From positions 65,001 through 129,000 of the forward strand of contig KV908518.1 of NCBI GenBank assembly GCA_002005505.1: a stretch of 64,000 nucleotides of DNA. Direction: 5' to 3'. The position numbers and the translations under genes were made by a program. The notes under the pieces were generated by a model, which was not told where the DNA came from, ran no database searches, and saw only the letters and a list, made by a program, of their open reading frames with translations. This DNA comes from Botryococcus braunii. Its lineage: Eukaryota; Chlorophyta; Trebouxiophyceae. This document shows positions 55,929 through 63,260 of this stretch, piece after piece. Position 1 is the first letter of the stretch, and each line of letters starts with the position of its first letter.

Positions 55929-56910
55929 CCAAGATACTAATGCATATGATGTGCCAGAGCTGGAGCAGCTTTTACAGGAGTTTAAAGACGTTCTGTCAGG
56001 ACTACCTCAAGGCCTGCCTCCTTCTCGTGCTAGTGACCACCAAATCAGATTGGAGCCGGACGCAACTCCACCAGCCTCCCGCATCTACCCGTTGTCCGGA
56101 GCCCAGCTTGCTGAGCTACGTGCGGATGAAAGGGGATTCATCCGCCCATCAACTTCTCCTTTCGGTGCACCCATTCTCTTTGTCCCAAAGAAGGATGGTG
56201 ATTGGCGTTTATGTATTGTCTATAGAGCCCTGAACAGGATTACCGTGAGAAACCAACACCCACTCCCTCGGATTGATGAAATGTTTGAGCAGTTGCATGG
56301 CAGTTGTGAATTTTCTAAGCTTGACCTTGCATCAGGTTATCATCAAATTAGGATGCATGAAGACAGTGTGGAAAAAACTGCTTTTAATACCAGATATGGC
56401 CATTATGAGTTTACAGTGATGCGTTTTGGATTGACTAATGCTCCTGCAACGTTCCAATCTGTCATGAATACTATCCTGGCTCCCTTTCTGGATAGGTTTG
56501 TGTTGGTGTACCTGGATGATATCCTAATATATTCTAAGTCTCTGGAAGAACACATGGAGCACTTAAGAATTATCCTGTCAGTGTTACGGGAAAACAAATT
56601 CTATTGTAAAAGATCTAAATGTGAGTTTGTGACTAAGCAAGTGGAATACTTAGGACACTTGTTGACACCCCAAGGGATTATGGTGGATCCAAGGAAGGTT
56701 GCAGCCATCCAGGAATAGCCCACTCCCCTGAATGTGTAACAGTTGAGAGGGTTCCTGGGCTTGACACAATACTATGACACATTCATGGATCATTTTGCAG
56801 ATGTTGCTTTTCCCCTTACTGAGTTGTTGAAAAAGGATATGCCTTGGACTTGGGAGGGACCTCAAATCCAAGCTTTCACTGCACTGAAGGATCTTGTCTC
56901 TTCCCCTCTG
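55929..56910 (+). pseudogene. Element G reverse transcriptase, decayed and 3'-truncated
   Basis: Frame from QDTNAYDVPELEQLLQEF, through VPKKDGDWRLC, LDLASGYHQIRMH, RFGLTNAPATFQ and YLDD (near 56506), to a TAG at 56716-56718. The same frame continues with another stop (LTQYYDTF) to SSPL near 56910, where it ends abruptly against J. The first motif has IVYRALN where IDYRxLN is usual; loss of that Asp may also harm activity. Confidence 0.85.
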
Positions 56911-56913
56911 TCG

Positions 56914-59176
56914 TGAACTGGAGTGTGACCGTGTACATTGGTGACCATCCGATTGATTTAAACTGACAATGTGTGTATTTGGCGTAGCCATAAAAGTGAT
57001 TAGTAAACGACCCTCAATCGGACTTGTACAGCTTTTATTATGGCTCTTATTTGACGTTTCATAAAGTCGTGGAAAAATGGCGCTTGTCTTTACCCTTTTG
57101 TACCTGGACTGGGGTATTTGTCCCTGATTTAGGTCCTAAGGGCAAAATTGTGTATTCCGGTGCTTTCATTCGAAGCAACGGTTGGAATTGAATGTTCGCG
57201 GAGACTTTGGTACTCGGTAGGTGCCATGCAGCTCGGCACGAAGAACTTTGACTTTTAGCCGTCCGCTGATCGATGTGTTGGCAGTGTTTTAGCCGCCCTT
57301 GATCATGTGAGGGCATGTGTTAATACGGCTTGGGAAGCTGTACGTATTACTAGAGGGGAGTGTATATTAGGGGCTCAGCCTCCGGCCCACAAGTAACAGT
57401 ATAATTCGGAAAGTTGCGTGTAAAGCATAGCGCCCCAACTCCGTGTCTGTCCGCGGCCCCCGGCGATTTAGGGATGTTGATTGTTTGACCTGTTATTTGA
57501 ACTGTATTTGAGACACTTTACTTGCAGTGTTATTGTGTTTTGTGACACTACTAACTTGCCGGGTTAGGCCGGACGATCGTACGAGTAACAGTACTTGATT
57601 TGCAAGGTAACACGTGAATTTGTATTAATTGTGAAAGGATATTGATATAATTGACCTGCCATAGTGATAGACCTGCGTGAACAATAAAATAGCAAAGTAG
57701 TTTAGGCCGAGAAACTACCCTGTCCGTAAAACTTCTTCATAACACTTCGGAAACAACCCGCGCACCCCTTGAAATTAACCAAGAACTTTAAGCAACTCAC
57801 ATTCTAGGCACCCGTACGAAATGAGCAATATCTGAAAAGTAAGTAAGGAGCCAGAACGACGCCGCCGGACTACCGATCCCACACCCACGTAGACACTAAA
57901 GGAATTACAACAGGAAGAAAATCCACACCCCAGAGATCGAAACACCTTTAAGAATACGTATAGTACAAAGAAAACCTCACGATTACTAGGCACCGAATGA
58001 GTCCAGCCCCACCAGTCAGAGCCGTGCTAGCCTAACCGTGATCGAAGCCATCCTCCGGATATCGTCCGAAAGACCGGTCGCAAGACCGTGAGTAATCCGG
58101 TAAGTCCCTCCTAAGTGCTAGGTCCCGGGGCCTCACAAACCCGGGTGGCGATCCGACCAATCGATTCGAACCTACATTTATAACCCCGCAGCCCGACTGA
58201 ATCTCGCTAACTAACCGAAAAATTTTGTGGGGGTACCGTTGGGCACGGAACCCTGTATGGCTGCACCGTCCAGGGAGTTTTAGCGCGTTAACTTTGTTAA
58301 CCCTAGGCTCTCCGAATCTGGTCCTTCTGCGCAGAAGTTTGCCGTGTTTCTTGTACAAAGTTGTACCGTAACTTGAATCAGTTGAGCTTTGTCTGCATAT
58401 AGGGCTGGGTATACCCCTTTAGGAGGGGCTTGAATACATTCCGTTTGTCGCAGGAGTTGACAGCAGAAGCATCAGCATCAACCGTTTGAAGCGAAACCAT
58501 ACTTTTGGAAAGTTCAGTTTATAGCACATCATCGTCTGTACTGCACGGTTAGTTGAGACAATTTGATTGATTGCAGCACTTGATTTCTGTTTGTGTGAAT
58601 TTTATCAACAGTAAAGACCTTAATTTCATAGCCGCGATTGCTTGATTGTTTGGTTATCGAAATCTTTGCAGCCCCAAAGACCGCGGTAGTTGGATACGCA
58701 TCAGGAAGAATATATATTTGATCGATCTAAGAAATTGTAGTAGCAGTTGTTGTAGTATTTAAAGATCATTCACAGTACCTTTGTAAGGATTGCCTTTATC
58801 TTCTGGAAGTCCAAGGTTGATAGTGAGACCTTGTTTAGGTTGAAGATACTGCAACCTTAGTAATACGATTCGTTAATTTTATAACTGCAGTGAATGTAAC
58901 AAGCAGAAAGAAACCTTGTAATACCAAATTTACAATAGACTAGCATTGCACGATTGCAATTGGGTTCACGGGATGCCCCTTTAGGAGGGGTCTGATTACA
59001 CTCCGTTTGTTGAACAAACACCCCTGCAGCCAGCTTAAACAGCAGAATCAGCAATACAGTTAGTAGCAGTACCAGCCATATCTGACATTAATTTGTGTCG
59101 TGAACACACGAGCGTAATCTCTAATAGTGTGTTAGGCCATCTAGAGCGCAAGGCCTTGTTTGATTAAACAACTAGA
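56914..59176 (+). other. Element J 5' LTR and leader (boundaries unresolved)
   Basis: About 2.3 kb without a convincing gene; the short open frames on the - strand look accidental. The hairpin CCCCTTTAGGAGGGG occurs twice (58414-58428 and 58976-58990), each followed by similar sequence (a C/TTGA-TTACA or TGAATACA motif, CCGTTTGT, then CAGCAGAA and ATCAGCA). So a unit is repeated about 562 bp apart. A TGG-led primer site such as TTGGATACGC near 58687 is possible but unproven. No TGGTATCGGCG site is seen. Confidence 0.5.
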
Positions 59177-62100
59177 ATGGCAGACGTACAAACTCCTGTT
59201 CGTTTAGAATTTTTCTATGGAAAGCCCACAGAAGACTCTTTTCAGTGGCTTGAGTCCTTTGAGTTGTTTATTGAGATCAACCATGTTGTGGGCGATCGAG
59301 TTTTACGATTTGTCAAACACGCAATGCGTGAAGATGCATATTCCTGGTTTCGTGCAAATCAAGATGACTTTAATGACTGGGATGAATGCAAGGAGGCTTT
59401 TCTCGAAAGATTTGGCCTCGACGAGGACACCCTTATGGTGAAACTAGACACATGCACACAACAATCCAATGAGACTGTTAGGAGTTATGCTGACAGATTT
59501 AGGAAATTAGTGGGTTACTTGCAGAACTCTCTGCCACCCAGAATGATAACACAGCTATTTGTTAAAGGTCTAGTACCACATCTACGTGAGAGGGTTCAAA
59601 TGACCTACCCCGGCAAAGGAGCGTTAGCCGACATTATAAAATTGGCAGCTGATTATGAACAAACATTCGGACACGCGCCTTTAGGGGGCATGTATTCAAA
59701 CCAGACCATAGAAGTGCCGGTGCGCGAGAGGATTGAGCAATGGAATCGCCGCGCCGATGACAATGTGGATCAGCGTGCAGCACGCCCGCCGCCGCAGCAA
59801 AATCAGAGAGAGAACAATAGAGACAACAGAAATTGGCAGCGTCAGCGAGACTTTCCGGAGCGACGCAACCAGCAGCCAGCAGTACCGCCTAGACAGATTG
59901 CTCCAATCAACCCACCAAGGGAGGCACCTGCGCCAACCCCAATTAATGACATTGACACCCTCACAAGGGAGATGGAGAGACTACGAATTCAAATCGCAGA
60001 ACTACAGCGACAGCCCACAGCCAACTTCACCAAGTTTGTGGAGCATGAACAGCAACCCGAGCAACCGCCCCCGGAGCACGCCACAATAATGTATGATGGA
60101 TTTACGGATCCTTTTCCCGTGTATCCTATATATGCCACTAAGAGGCCAGCAGAAAGTCCACCTGAAGCAAACCAACCGCTGCTTCGGCGCCGCCCCAACA
60201 ACCTGGAGGACACTACAGTTGACCCAAGAAACATACCAAGGCCTGCCGCCCCTCGGCCTGCACCAGCTCAGAGACAACCAGTAGAACCTACAACACCAGC
60301 AGCACCCCCGCCTGCACCTGCAAGGGAGCCAGCAGCGCGTCCACACGTGGACCTTGGAGGATTGCCTCCCCTACCTAATGCCGCACGTCCCGCCGCCTAC
60401 AGGAGACCAGTGGCCATCGCACCAGCTACGGCAGAACCCATTCAGCAGATTAAAGGGCTTCCCATGAAGCTCACCGTACAAACCTACCTGAACCACATCA
60501 GCGAGGAGGAGTTCAACAAGTCAATCAAGGAGCTAAAGGAGTCCCGTGAGGAATTTCTGCGTAACAGACAGCGAGACCCGCCGCCAGCGAGAGCTACCAT
60601 TGCGGAAGTTATCTACGTTTCTGGAGGGACCACCTCAACTAGCAGGACTGACAACGAGGAGTCACCTTCAACGCAAATGCCACAATCAAACCTGCAAAGG
60701 AATCCGGTGAACACCACTGTTGCCACCGTACCTATAATCATTAATGACTTAGTATTTGAGGATGGCATCATTGATACTGGTGCCACAAACACAATGATTT
60801 CACAACCAGCCGCACGACAGTTAAATTTAATTGATCAGATTGAGCCTTCACGTCTTAGATACTCGTGTGCAGATGGGAAAATGTCCACTCCTTGGGGCAT
60901 TATTCGCAAGCTCCCTGTAGGAGTTGAGGGCTTAGTAATACCAATTGACGTATTTGTTAGTGGAGCGACTTCTTATGATGTACTTCTTGGAACAGATTGG
61001 CTTACTCAGGCTCACGCCGAGATAAGCTTCGCCAAGCAAGAGATGTCTTTTCGAATAGAACCACAAATTATGGGGAGAGTTCCCATGACTGTCATGCCTG
61101 CCAGTAAAAGCAGCAACCGATATTGCGTCGCGAGAGTCCCAGGAATAGATTTCGATGGTCCCGCGGGTCATCCCGCCGACCCAGGGGTACCTGGGGTACC
61201 CGGCCTACTAGACGAAATTATAAACATTGAGAACGATCTGTCAGAAGAATCCCAGGAAGAAACAGACCTTTATTCCGGGAGTGAGGGAGAAATTCCTAGT
61301 ACTGAACCCTCCGAGGAGGAGGAAGAGTATTCGGAGGAGCATGAGGCTTTCTCTTCCGAAAGTGAGATTGAGATTTACAATGCGACAGTAAGCAACGAGG
61401 GTCGAGAGCTTGAGTTAGCAGCCCATCCTTACATGACTGAAGATTGGATGTTGGAAACTAATGTTTTTAGAGAAATTGAAACACAGTGGGGTCCTTTTGA
61501 CCTCGACGCATGTTGTGATCTCCAAGGTCACAACTCTCAGTTACCTTTGTATTGGTCCGCTGAGGACGATTGTTTACAGCAGAGCTGGACCCATTTGAGT
61601 ATATATTGCAACCCACCTTTTTCGATAATTGACAGAGTTGTGAATCACTGCCTCGCGTGTTTCACCAGTAGTCCCTTTACCACTAGTGCAGTACTTGTGC
61701 TACCATGGTGGCCTTCTGCCCCTTGGTTTCCTACAGTAATGGAGCAATTTGAGATCATCAAACAATACCCTCCTGGTGTGCAGCTTTTCACAGCCCCGGG
61801 AGAGGACCCTGCAGGTCCGCGACGTCGTTATGGCCCTACCAGATGGCCTGTCATAATTGTTCGTGTCCCCACCTCCCTTATAAAGGAAGATCCTGGTATG
61901 CAGAAGTTGAGAGAGATAACAAATACTGAAAAGATGAAACAGGACCCCGATCCCATGTTAAAAATCACCACCGGGATGCGAAAATTGGGTCCTAAGAGAG
62001 AAGAAGAGATTGAGAGATTATTACAGGAGTACAAGGACGTATTTACCCCAGGTATAGTACAGGAAAGAACCACCTTAATGCACCACCGCATAGACACTGG

Positions 62101-62923
62101 GGATGCGGTCCCCATCAAAACACGCCCTTATCGCTTGTCCCGTTCGGAGGATCAGGTGATCGAGGAAGAAGTTCACAAAATGCTAGAGGCTGGAGTGATA
62201 GTGCCTTCCAACTCTCCTTGGTCTAGTTCGCCTGTGTTAGTAGGCAAGCCGGATGGCTCTGTCCGGTTTTGTATTGACTACCGTCCATTAAATGCAGTTA
62301 CCAGACGTGACAATTACCCCATGCCTAGGATAGATGAGACCCTAGATTCCTTAGGTCAGGGGGTGGAATACTTGAGTAAGATTGATTGCAAGTCAGCCTT
62401 CTGGTTGATACCAGTACCCCCAGAGGACCGTGCAAAAACCGCTTTTACTACCAAAGAAGGTTTATTCGAGTTTGTATCAATGCCGTTCGGCTTGCGTAAC
62501 GCCCCGGCTACGCTACAGAGATTTGTTAACACTCTGTTGCAAGACTTAATAGGAAAGTGTTGTGTCATTTATCTAGATGACTGTTTGATATACAGCCGCA
62601 CATTTGAGGACCACCTCACACATCTGAAATTAGTGCTTGAACGCTTCCGTGCGGTGGGCTTTAGAGCCAACCCAGCCAAGTGTGAGTTATGTTGCAGTGA
62701 AGTGTTGTACTTAGGATACATTATCACGCCCCAAGGCATAAAGCCCAACCCTTCCAAGGTTGAGGCAGTTCTTAACGCAGCACCGCCGACGAACGTGACC
62801 GAAGTCAGGTCCTTTTTGGGACTTGCAAACTACTACCGGAGATTTCTGCACAACATGGCCGCCATATCTGCCCCTTTGACGCGGCTCACGAAAAAGGGGG
62901 TTGTTTTCAACTGGACCACTGAC
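59177..62923 (+). CDS. Element J gag-pol with Dam-like methyltransferase domain, 3'-truncated
   Basis: About 1249 codons before K interrupts it; the frame runs on to 62965 in K's LTR. Residues about 1-170 are a Retrotrans_gag capsid domain (FFYGKPTEDSFQWLESF, SYADRFRKLVGYL). The next 350 residues are Arg/Pro/Gln-rich, with no zinc knuckle and no Cys that I can see. Protease: IDTGATNTMI (DTGA at 533-536) and YDVLLGTDWL. Then an acidic Ser/Glu linker, and at about 755-870 a domain resembling phage-type and DIRS N6-adenine methyltransferases: GPFDLDACC (FDLD 774-777), NPPF (812-815), LPWWPSAPWF (842-851). Reverse transcriptase follows (FCIDYRPLNAVT, FGLRNAPATLQ, YLDD 1132-1135). RNase H and integrase are lost beyond K. 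Gag, protease and reverse transcriptase are sure; the methyltransferase is a motif-based call. Confidence 0.85.
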
Positions 62924-63260
62924 TGTTGTGTTTGGTATCAGTACAGAACGGAATCCGAAGATTAAAGTTGGAATTAGTGAGCTAGACGGCTCCCTGCCGT
63001 CCCAAGGCCTTCGGCCTTGGCGTCCTTTGGGATCCTTTAGGACAGGCGTCCAGTAGGATCCTACTTACGGGATCCTTTGGACTAGTCCGATAACCCCTCC
63101 TGAGTTTCAGGACATGCACGCCAGCTGTCCGCCAGCTGGAGAGATGCTTCAAGACTAGGCCATGGCCACGTCAGCCTTGGATTCGCTGATCGATCGCACC
63201 CTCGAGATCGTGGTTCCCAAATCGGGTACCCACAATCTCGCTGGTACCCACAGCACAACA
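62924..63260 (-). repeat. Element K 3' LTR
   Basis: 337 bp, TGTTGTGTTTGG...GCACAACA, homologous to E's 329-bp LTR but diverged (shared TGTTGTG start, CCTTTGGGATCC, AGGACATGC, GGTACCCAC and GCACAACA end). The next bases TCCCTCCCCACTTAAG are the polypurine tract complement. Confidence 0.88.

Follow-up and report, generated by a model that had tools for sequence, protein, structure and literature searches.

A Dam-type adenine methyltransferase domain between protease and reverse transcriptase in a Ty3/Gypsy family of the green alga Botryococcus braunii

A Ty3/Gypsy retrotransposon family in the genome of Botryococcus braunii encodes, within its Gag-Pol polyprotein and between the protease and the reverse transcriptase (RT), a genuine and selected domain that belongs to the adenine-N6 methyltransferases (MT) of phage Dam type (PF05869). 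The copy from which this was recognized lies in a window of 64,000 nt, the whole stretch of DNA analysed here (assembly GCA_002005505.1, contig KV908518.1, positions 65,001-129,000, forward strand). The original prediction for this DNA described an uninterrupted frame with DTGA, FDLDACC, NPPF, LPWWPSAPWF, a basic segment and then RT, and all of these are present in a single frame (Table 1), the basic segment being PRRRYGPTRW, between LPWWPSAPWF and RT. The domain had been placed at 61420-61880, in close agreement with the boundaries adopted here, and the Pfam matches follow one another in the order gag, protease, Dam and RVT_1, which confirms its position between protease and RT.

Table 1. Features of the window copy and of related loci in the host genome (unprefixed coordinates are window positions)
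Feature	Location	Strand	Basis or remarks
5' LTR of window copy	56909..58257	+	1349 bp, 99.4% identity to 3' partner
Gag-Pol open frame	59177..62965	+	1262 codons; gag, protease, acidic linker, methyltransferase, RT; without RNase H or integrase
Gag (PF03732)	59309..59572	+	residues 45-132, E=6.2e-13 (Pfam)
Aspartic protease, DTGA active site (residue 533)	60728..61054	+	PF13975/PF08284/PF13650, residues 518-626
Acidic linker, protease to methyltransferase	61094..61441	+	sequence; fast evolving (identity to B copy)
Dam-type adenine methyltransferase domain	61424..61891	+	PF05869, PHROG 111, predicted fold
FDLDACC motif (residue 774)	61496..61516	+	alignment of 27 retroelement domains
NPPF catalytic motif (residue 812)	61610..61621	+	inside PF05869 match
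LPWWPSAPWF motif	61700..61729	+	P94, W96 and W101 invariant in 22 rows of alignment A1
FTAP...GPTRWPVIIV C-terminal motif	61787..61861	+	common to most aligned retroelement domains; missing in P0004, P0005
Reverse transcriptase, PF00078 (RVT_1)	62243..62725	+	residues 1023-1183, E=1.2e-34; YLDD at 1132
Break of window copy	62925..62926	.	homology to copy L031 stops
3' LTR partner, outside window	C193:142125-143473		1349 bp match, 99.4%
RT-less multi-copy derivative (gag-protease-MT-X)	L032:1761-5612, loci L033-L052		RT cut after ~25 residues in 15/20
Region X	L032:4758-5609; L072:3716-4177		no Pfam match

The Dam-type identity of the domain, for which a profile search had been proposed as the check, is borne out by two libraries of profiles. 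PF05869 matches residues 756-858 of the whole frame with 50.4 bits and the piece 61379-61888 alone with 54.7 bits (E=1.3e-14), against a curated cut-off of 28.1. The same piece matches PHROG 111, a family of phage DNA methyltransferases, with E=2.5e-15, and this family is matched by 22 of 22 aligned domains. The catalytic motif of the PF05869 family, (D/N)PP(Y/F/W), is found here as NPPF, whose asparagine is invariant in alignment A1 (22 rows); D28, A29 and C30 of FDLDACC, a motif that we take to have a role in AdoMet binding, are nearly invariant there. A search of the window frame for a cytosine DNMT domain gave no Pfam match at E values up to 10. The structural check agrees: the model of the domain is confident (pLDDT 92.1) and has the AdoMet-methyltransferase fold that was expected, its best match in a viral library is a phage methyltransferase (E 1.9e-10), and the next ones are phage proteins named DNA N-6-adenine-methyltransferase (E 2.6e-10 and following ranks).

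The window copy is not intact, being interrupted behind its RT. It is 97.0% identical to the genomic copy L031 over 4810 bp, up to window position 62925, and its integrase end, a region X (described below) and its 3' LTR were found about 13-16 kb beyond the break, reading to the window end and then on from C193:137500. The claim therefore rests on the family and not on this copy. Membership in Ty3/Gypsy is indicated by the LTR pair (1349 bp, 99.4% identity) and by the order protease-RT-RNase H-DDE integrase, which is found in the relative P0003 and also in L031, there with a frame break before integrase; the window frame stops after RT. The LTR pair ends in TG...TA. At the two outer LTR ends of the broken window copy, the single copy inspected for this, no target-site duplication was seen, and because its flanks are without one, an age of the copy derived from the LTR identity was discarded. 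Elsewhere in the window (positions 1-55000) there are long frames whose sequence motifs presumably mark them as resembling Copia elements, together with MT-less Gypsy elements.

A green-algal host agrees with the RuBisCO small-subunit matches of the host assembly (176 Mb, 989 contigs), which are divided among exons on one contig; one exon is closest to chloroplast small subunits, with green-algal entries ranking first. The domain is repeated many times in this assembly, which yields at least 84 matches, some being parts of a single copy. PF05869 finds 72, every one of them above the cut-off and at a site already among the 84. With fragments set aside, the copies form three groups by identity to the window domain, namely A (mostly 95-100%, one at 90%), B (76-79%) and C (62-68%); one decayed copy stands at 69%. 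The NPPF of the window copy is intact, as originally stated, and other copies keep the domain, the motif being exact in 43 of the 51 distinct genomic places read, which are mostly the best-scoring matches and hence biased to intact copies. The other eight places read NPPC (2), NPPL (2), TPPF, NPTF, NPRF and NPLF, which counts against an active enzyme.

Comparison of the window (A) with one B copy gave a dN/dS of 0.11 for the domain (39 non-synonymous and 57 synonymous differences), and the other parts of the same pair have values of 0.02 (protease), 0.14 (acidic linker) and 0.08 (RT); amino-acid identity in this pair is 0.61 for the linker and 0.98 for the protease. Against C the dN of the domain is 0.28, with synonymous sites saturated, and two A copies differ from each other at too few positions (4 and 2) to judge selection; L005 and L031, both used in these comparisons, are one genomic copy. 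Judging from these substitution patterns, with the A-B figure coming from one pair, the domain is under purifying selection. Synonymous divergence between A and B amounts to 1.1-1.8 through the end of the domain and 0.12-0.14 beyond it, the two subfamilies sharing nearly the same RT and having very different gag-protease-MT parts (window 61892 onward vs L029). This drop suggests that recombination has shaped A and B, the exchange point lying directly downstream of the methyltransferase.

Subfamily C includes multi-copy derivatives that are RT-less. Among 20 C loci read with 1.5-kb flanks, a full RT match (300 aa) is present in three, the first 25 residues of RT only in 15, and none in two; this count would not register an RT displaced past the flank by an insertion, and an RT piece does lie about 7 kb behind one of the last two loci. 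In L032, a frame of 1283 codons encodes gag, protease, MT and region X, and Pfam finds neither RT nor RNase H nor integrase in it. None of the 20 C loci has a stop codon in its methyltransferase piece. Pooled pN/pS among RT-less copies is 0.23 for the MT (12 copies, 66 pairs), 0.13 for the protease (55 pairs of 11 copies, one of which carries a stop in this region) and 0.68 for region X, the last indicating weak constraint. Pooling makes use of pairs that depend on one another, and some of the constraint may be older than the RT loss. These derivatives would need RT in trans, and they could retain the domain by hitchhiking. Region X follows in 14 of the 20 C loci, with fewer than 100 residues in two, and its C-terminal ~170 residues recur downstream of RT, at a distance of 1.35 or 2.3 kb where this was worked out, in numerous copies of A and B and not in L031. 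Region X, considered as an envelope or accessory gene, has no Pfam match and shows weak constraint. Two metagenome proteins, P0004 and P0005, have a similar make-up (gag-protease-MT or protease-MT, no RT match behind) and share X-like sequence with L032. They keep NPPF and have lost the FTAP and GPTRW motifs, and this loss speaks against a strict need for the domain there.

Three protein searches yielded 24 different proteins (P0002-P0025) from other sources. Full-length relatives with the order of the window, for which the original prediction had suggested a search, do exist: P0003, P0006 and P0009, when scanned, contain gag, protease, Dam, RT, RNase H, PHD finger and integrase in this order. 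The other window-type relatives, whose domains were taken from the source's precomputed lists, show the order protease, MT, RT and PHD by motif positions where the pieces are present, and a PHD finger was not seen in P0010 and P0020. P0020 has an RNase H-like domain (residues 520-615) between protease and methyltransferase. In a second arrangement, found in the chromodomain Gypsy relatives P0012 and P0021 (scanned) and, by motifs, in P0022 and P0023, Dam stands before the protease, and RT, RNase H, integrase and a chromodomain follow. Where the active site of the protease probably lies, P0012 (residue 222) and P0022 (residue 206) have DGGA instead of D(S/T)GA. The third arrangement is that of P0013, P0024 and P0025, which are DIRS-like by motif order and have Dam behind RT, as in DIRS; their NPDW in place of NPPW may mean an inactive or altered enzyme. 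Outside the RT-less derivatives, the domain is part of an RT-bearing polyprotein, in one of three arrangements.

In ordinary Gypsy elements the protease had been described as directly followed by RT, and two MT-less host elements (L070 and L071, taken from 127 scored among 2076 RT candidates) show this ordinary arrangement. Their RTs are 46% identical relatives of that in the window, and their order is protease, linker (acidic in L070), RT, RNase H, integrase and chromodomain, with no Dam. In the tree of the methyltransferase domain, 27 retroelement domains lie on one side of a branch and five phage enzymes on the other (100/99); because the phage rows are few, the branches long and canonical animal and fungal DIRS domains left out, a single origin of the retroelement domains is at most suggested. 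The RT tree (25 rows) joins 17 rows of the window lineage (14 relatives, two A copies and one C copy; 100/100), and its other side holds four MT-bearing chromodomain elements and four MT-less Gypsy sequences from host genome and window, in an unresolved inner order. Since the domain also occupies differing places in the polyprotein, this split points to gains that occurred separately or to a transfer among Gypsy elements; the alternative would be one old gain in Gypsy followed by losses.

As to function, our preferred reading, which we hold at slightly better than an even chance, is that the domain is enzymatically active and methylates adenines in the cDNA of the element or in its new copy. 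The choice of cDNA as the substrate is based on the kinship with Dam and on the company of RT in all three arrangements. As part of Gag-Pol, the methyltransferase would travel with RT in the virus-like particle, where it would be cut free by the protease or would work as an MT-RT unit. It would then carry out AdoMet-dependent N6-methylation of adenines in the cDNA or in the freshly integrated copy, and this methylation may protect the cDNA or new copy from nucleases, or may mark it as permissive chromatin and in this way allow its expression. A search for a target motif among 12 palindromic tetramers, by observed/expected ratios in three MT-bearing sequences, two MT-less Gypsy loci and 50 kb of the window, had low power and gave nothing consistent (e.g., GATC: 0.96 in the window frame, 0.68 in L031, 1.21 in L032, 0.87 and 0.88 in the MT-less loci and 0.96 in the 50 kb). 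MT-A70 matches on two contigs of the host genome count against this reading; since the host has them, endogenous adenine methylation is possible and would need to be told apart from that of the element.

A serious rival, although we regard it as unlikely, is that the active enzyme methylates RNA, placing m6A or cap-adjacent m6Am on the element's genomic transcript, e.g., for stability, packaging or escape from sensing. The closest solved structure is PCIF1, an mRNA-cap adenosine methyltransferase and thus an RNA enzyme, the predicted structure has the fold of the PCIF1 catalytic domain, and the viral library also includes PCIF1-like giant-virus proteins (E 4.1e-05 and weaker), all of which weighs against DNA as the substrate. 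PCIF1 may however win by default, as there are perhaps few phage Dam structures in the PDB, and the nearest family by sequence is that of the phage DNA methylases. Membership of the domain in the PCIF1 family was tried and rejected: PF12237 scores 13.5 bits against a cut-off of 31.1, and weak sequence matches (E 0.054 and 0.13) disappear with a profile of 22 relatives, so that the relation stays one of fold only. A PF12237 search of the host genome gave 0 matches, the search controls likewise giving no signal.

A further reading, in our assessment rather improbable, is that the domain has little or no catalytic activity and is kept as a binder of nucleic acid with a structural role, such as a spacer or a template-binding module of RT. 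Such a role would agree with the NPDW of the three DIRS-like proteins, with NCPY in the chromodomain relative P0023 and HPPF in P0002, with the altered NPPF in eight of 51 host places, and with the lost C-terminal motifs of the RT-less metagenome proteins. But apart from the DIRS-like three and P0023, NPP[FWY] is kept in 19 of 20 relatives (P0002 being the exception), although those of the 20 that are in A1 are 37-63% identical to the window domain, and both dN/dS and pN/pS indicate purifying selection. Chance similarity, or an artefact of assembly or annotation, found no support beyond the fact that a broken window copy cannot alone prove function, and is already refuted, its probability being negligible, by the 72 host matches above cut-off, the relatives in other data sets and the confident fold.

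Methylation of the element's own cDNA or new copy can be taken one step further if the PHD finger of the window lineage is considered. Members of the PHD fold often read H3K4. One study places eukaryotic 6mA preferentially at permissive, H3K4me3-marked regions (PMC12695648), which makes a loop of self-marking and targeting thinkable, as a matter of speculation. We put forward, as a tentative and rather doubtful extension, a write-and-read kit of Gypsy elements, in which the MT would mark the cDNA or new copy with 6mA and the PHD finger before the integrase would steer integration to permissive, H3K4-marked chromatin; adenine MTs would have been taken up more than once in Gypsy (in the PHD and chromodomain lineages), in parallel to DIRS, and the RT-less derivatives would be served by the MT in trans.

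The domain suggests that elements may mark their own DNA or RNA chemically, and it bears on whether mobile elements can write eukaryotic 6mA, as well as on the kinship of Dam-type enzymes with PCIF1. The same domain in a different class of retroelements and at another position, with many near-identical copies in a single genome and RT-less derivatives that retain it, amounts to a set of independent natural replicates, for which a green alga may serve as a practical system. PCIF1/CAPAM, a cellular RNA enzyme with further domains (a WW domain among them), shares with the Gypsy domain the closest solved fold and the NPPF motif and differs from it in its sequence family, PF12237. Phage Dam enzymes (PF05869, PHROG 111) are alike in sequence profile, fold and motif layout; unlike the Gypsy domain they are stand-alone proteins, annotated as DNA or adenine methyltransferase or methylase in most of those listed, separate in the tree, and 21-29% identical over the aligned part (40 listed of 576 records). 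In viral contigs, scanned twice with a single domain as query, no relatives turned up.

Among retroelements, the nearest known case is that of the DIRS1-type retrotransposons, for which two papers give the order RT-RNase H-Dam methyltransferase PF05869 (PMC3783388, PMC3266345), in agreement with the earlier remark that the domain follows RT/RNase H there. Their polyprotein likewise combines RT with a methyltransferase of this family, and our three DIRS-like relatives group with the Gypsy domains in the domain tree, apart from the phage enzymes. DIRS elements have a tyrosine recombinase, no protease, and the MT after RNase H, whereas the Gypsy family has LTRs, an aspartic protease in the window frame, a DDE integrase in relatives and L031, and the MT between protease and RT; no tyrosine recombinase is among the Pfam matches of the scanned frames. 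Capture of cytosine methyltransferases by retrotransposons, which had also been cited as known, is exemplified by KnitGypsy-Dnmt3 of Klebsormidium. This Gypsy element, also from the green lineage, has within Pol a DNA methyltransferase that is under purifying selection; its Dnmt3 is a C5-cytosine enzyme that is called structurally unrelated to Dam-like enzymes (PMC5890265). In the alga Ectocarpus, too, a Gypsy lineage carries an extra enzyme domain, which there is NADAR and stands where Pol begins, and the methyltransferase of that report, a predicted N4-cytosine or N6-adenine enzyme, belongs to algal DNA transposons (PMC12477816). The open-PMC matches listed held no report of a Dam or adenine methyltransferase in Gypsy. 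The novelty claimed for an adenine-type domain in this position concerns the kind of element and its position, and not Dam domains in retrotransposons as such, since Dam in DIRS and Dnmt3 in Gypsy were already published.
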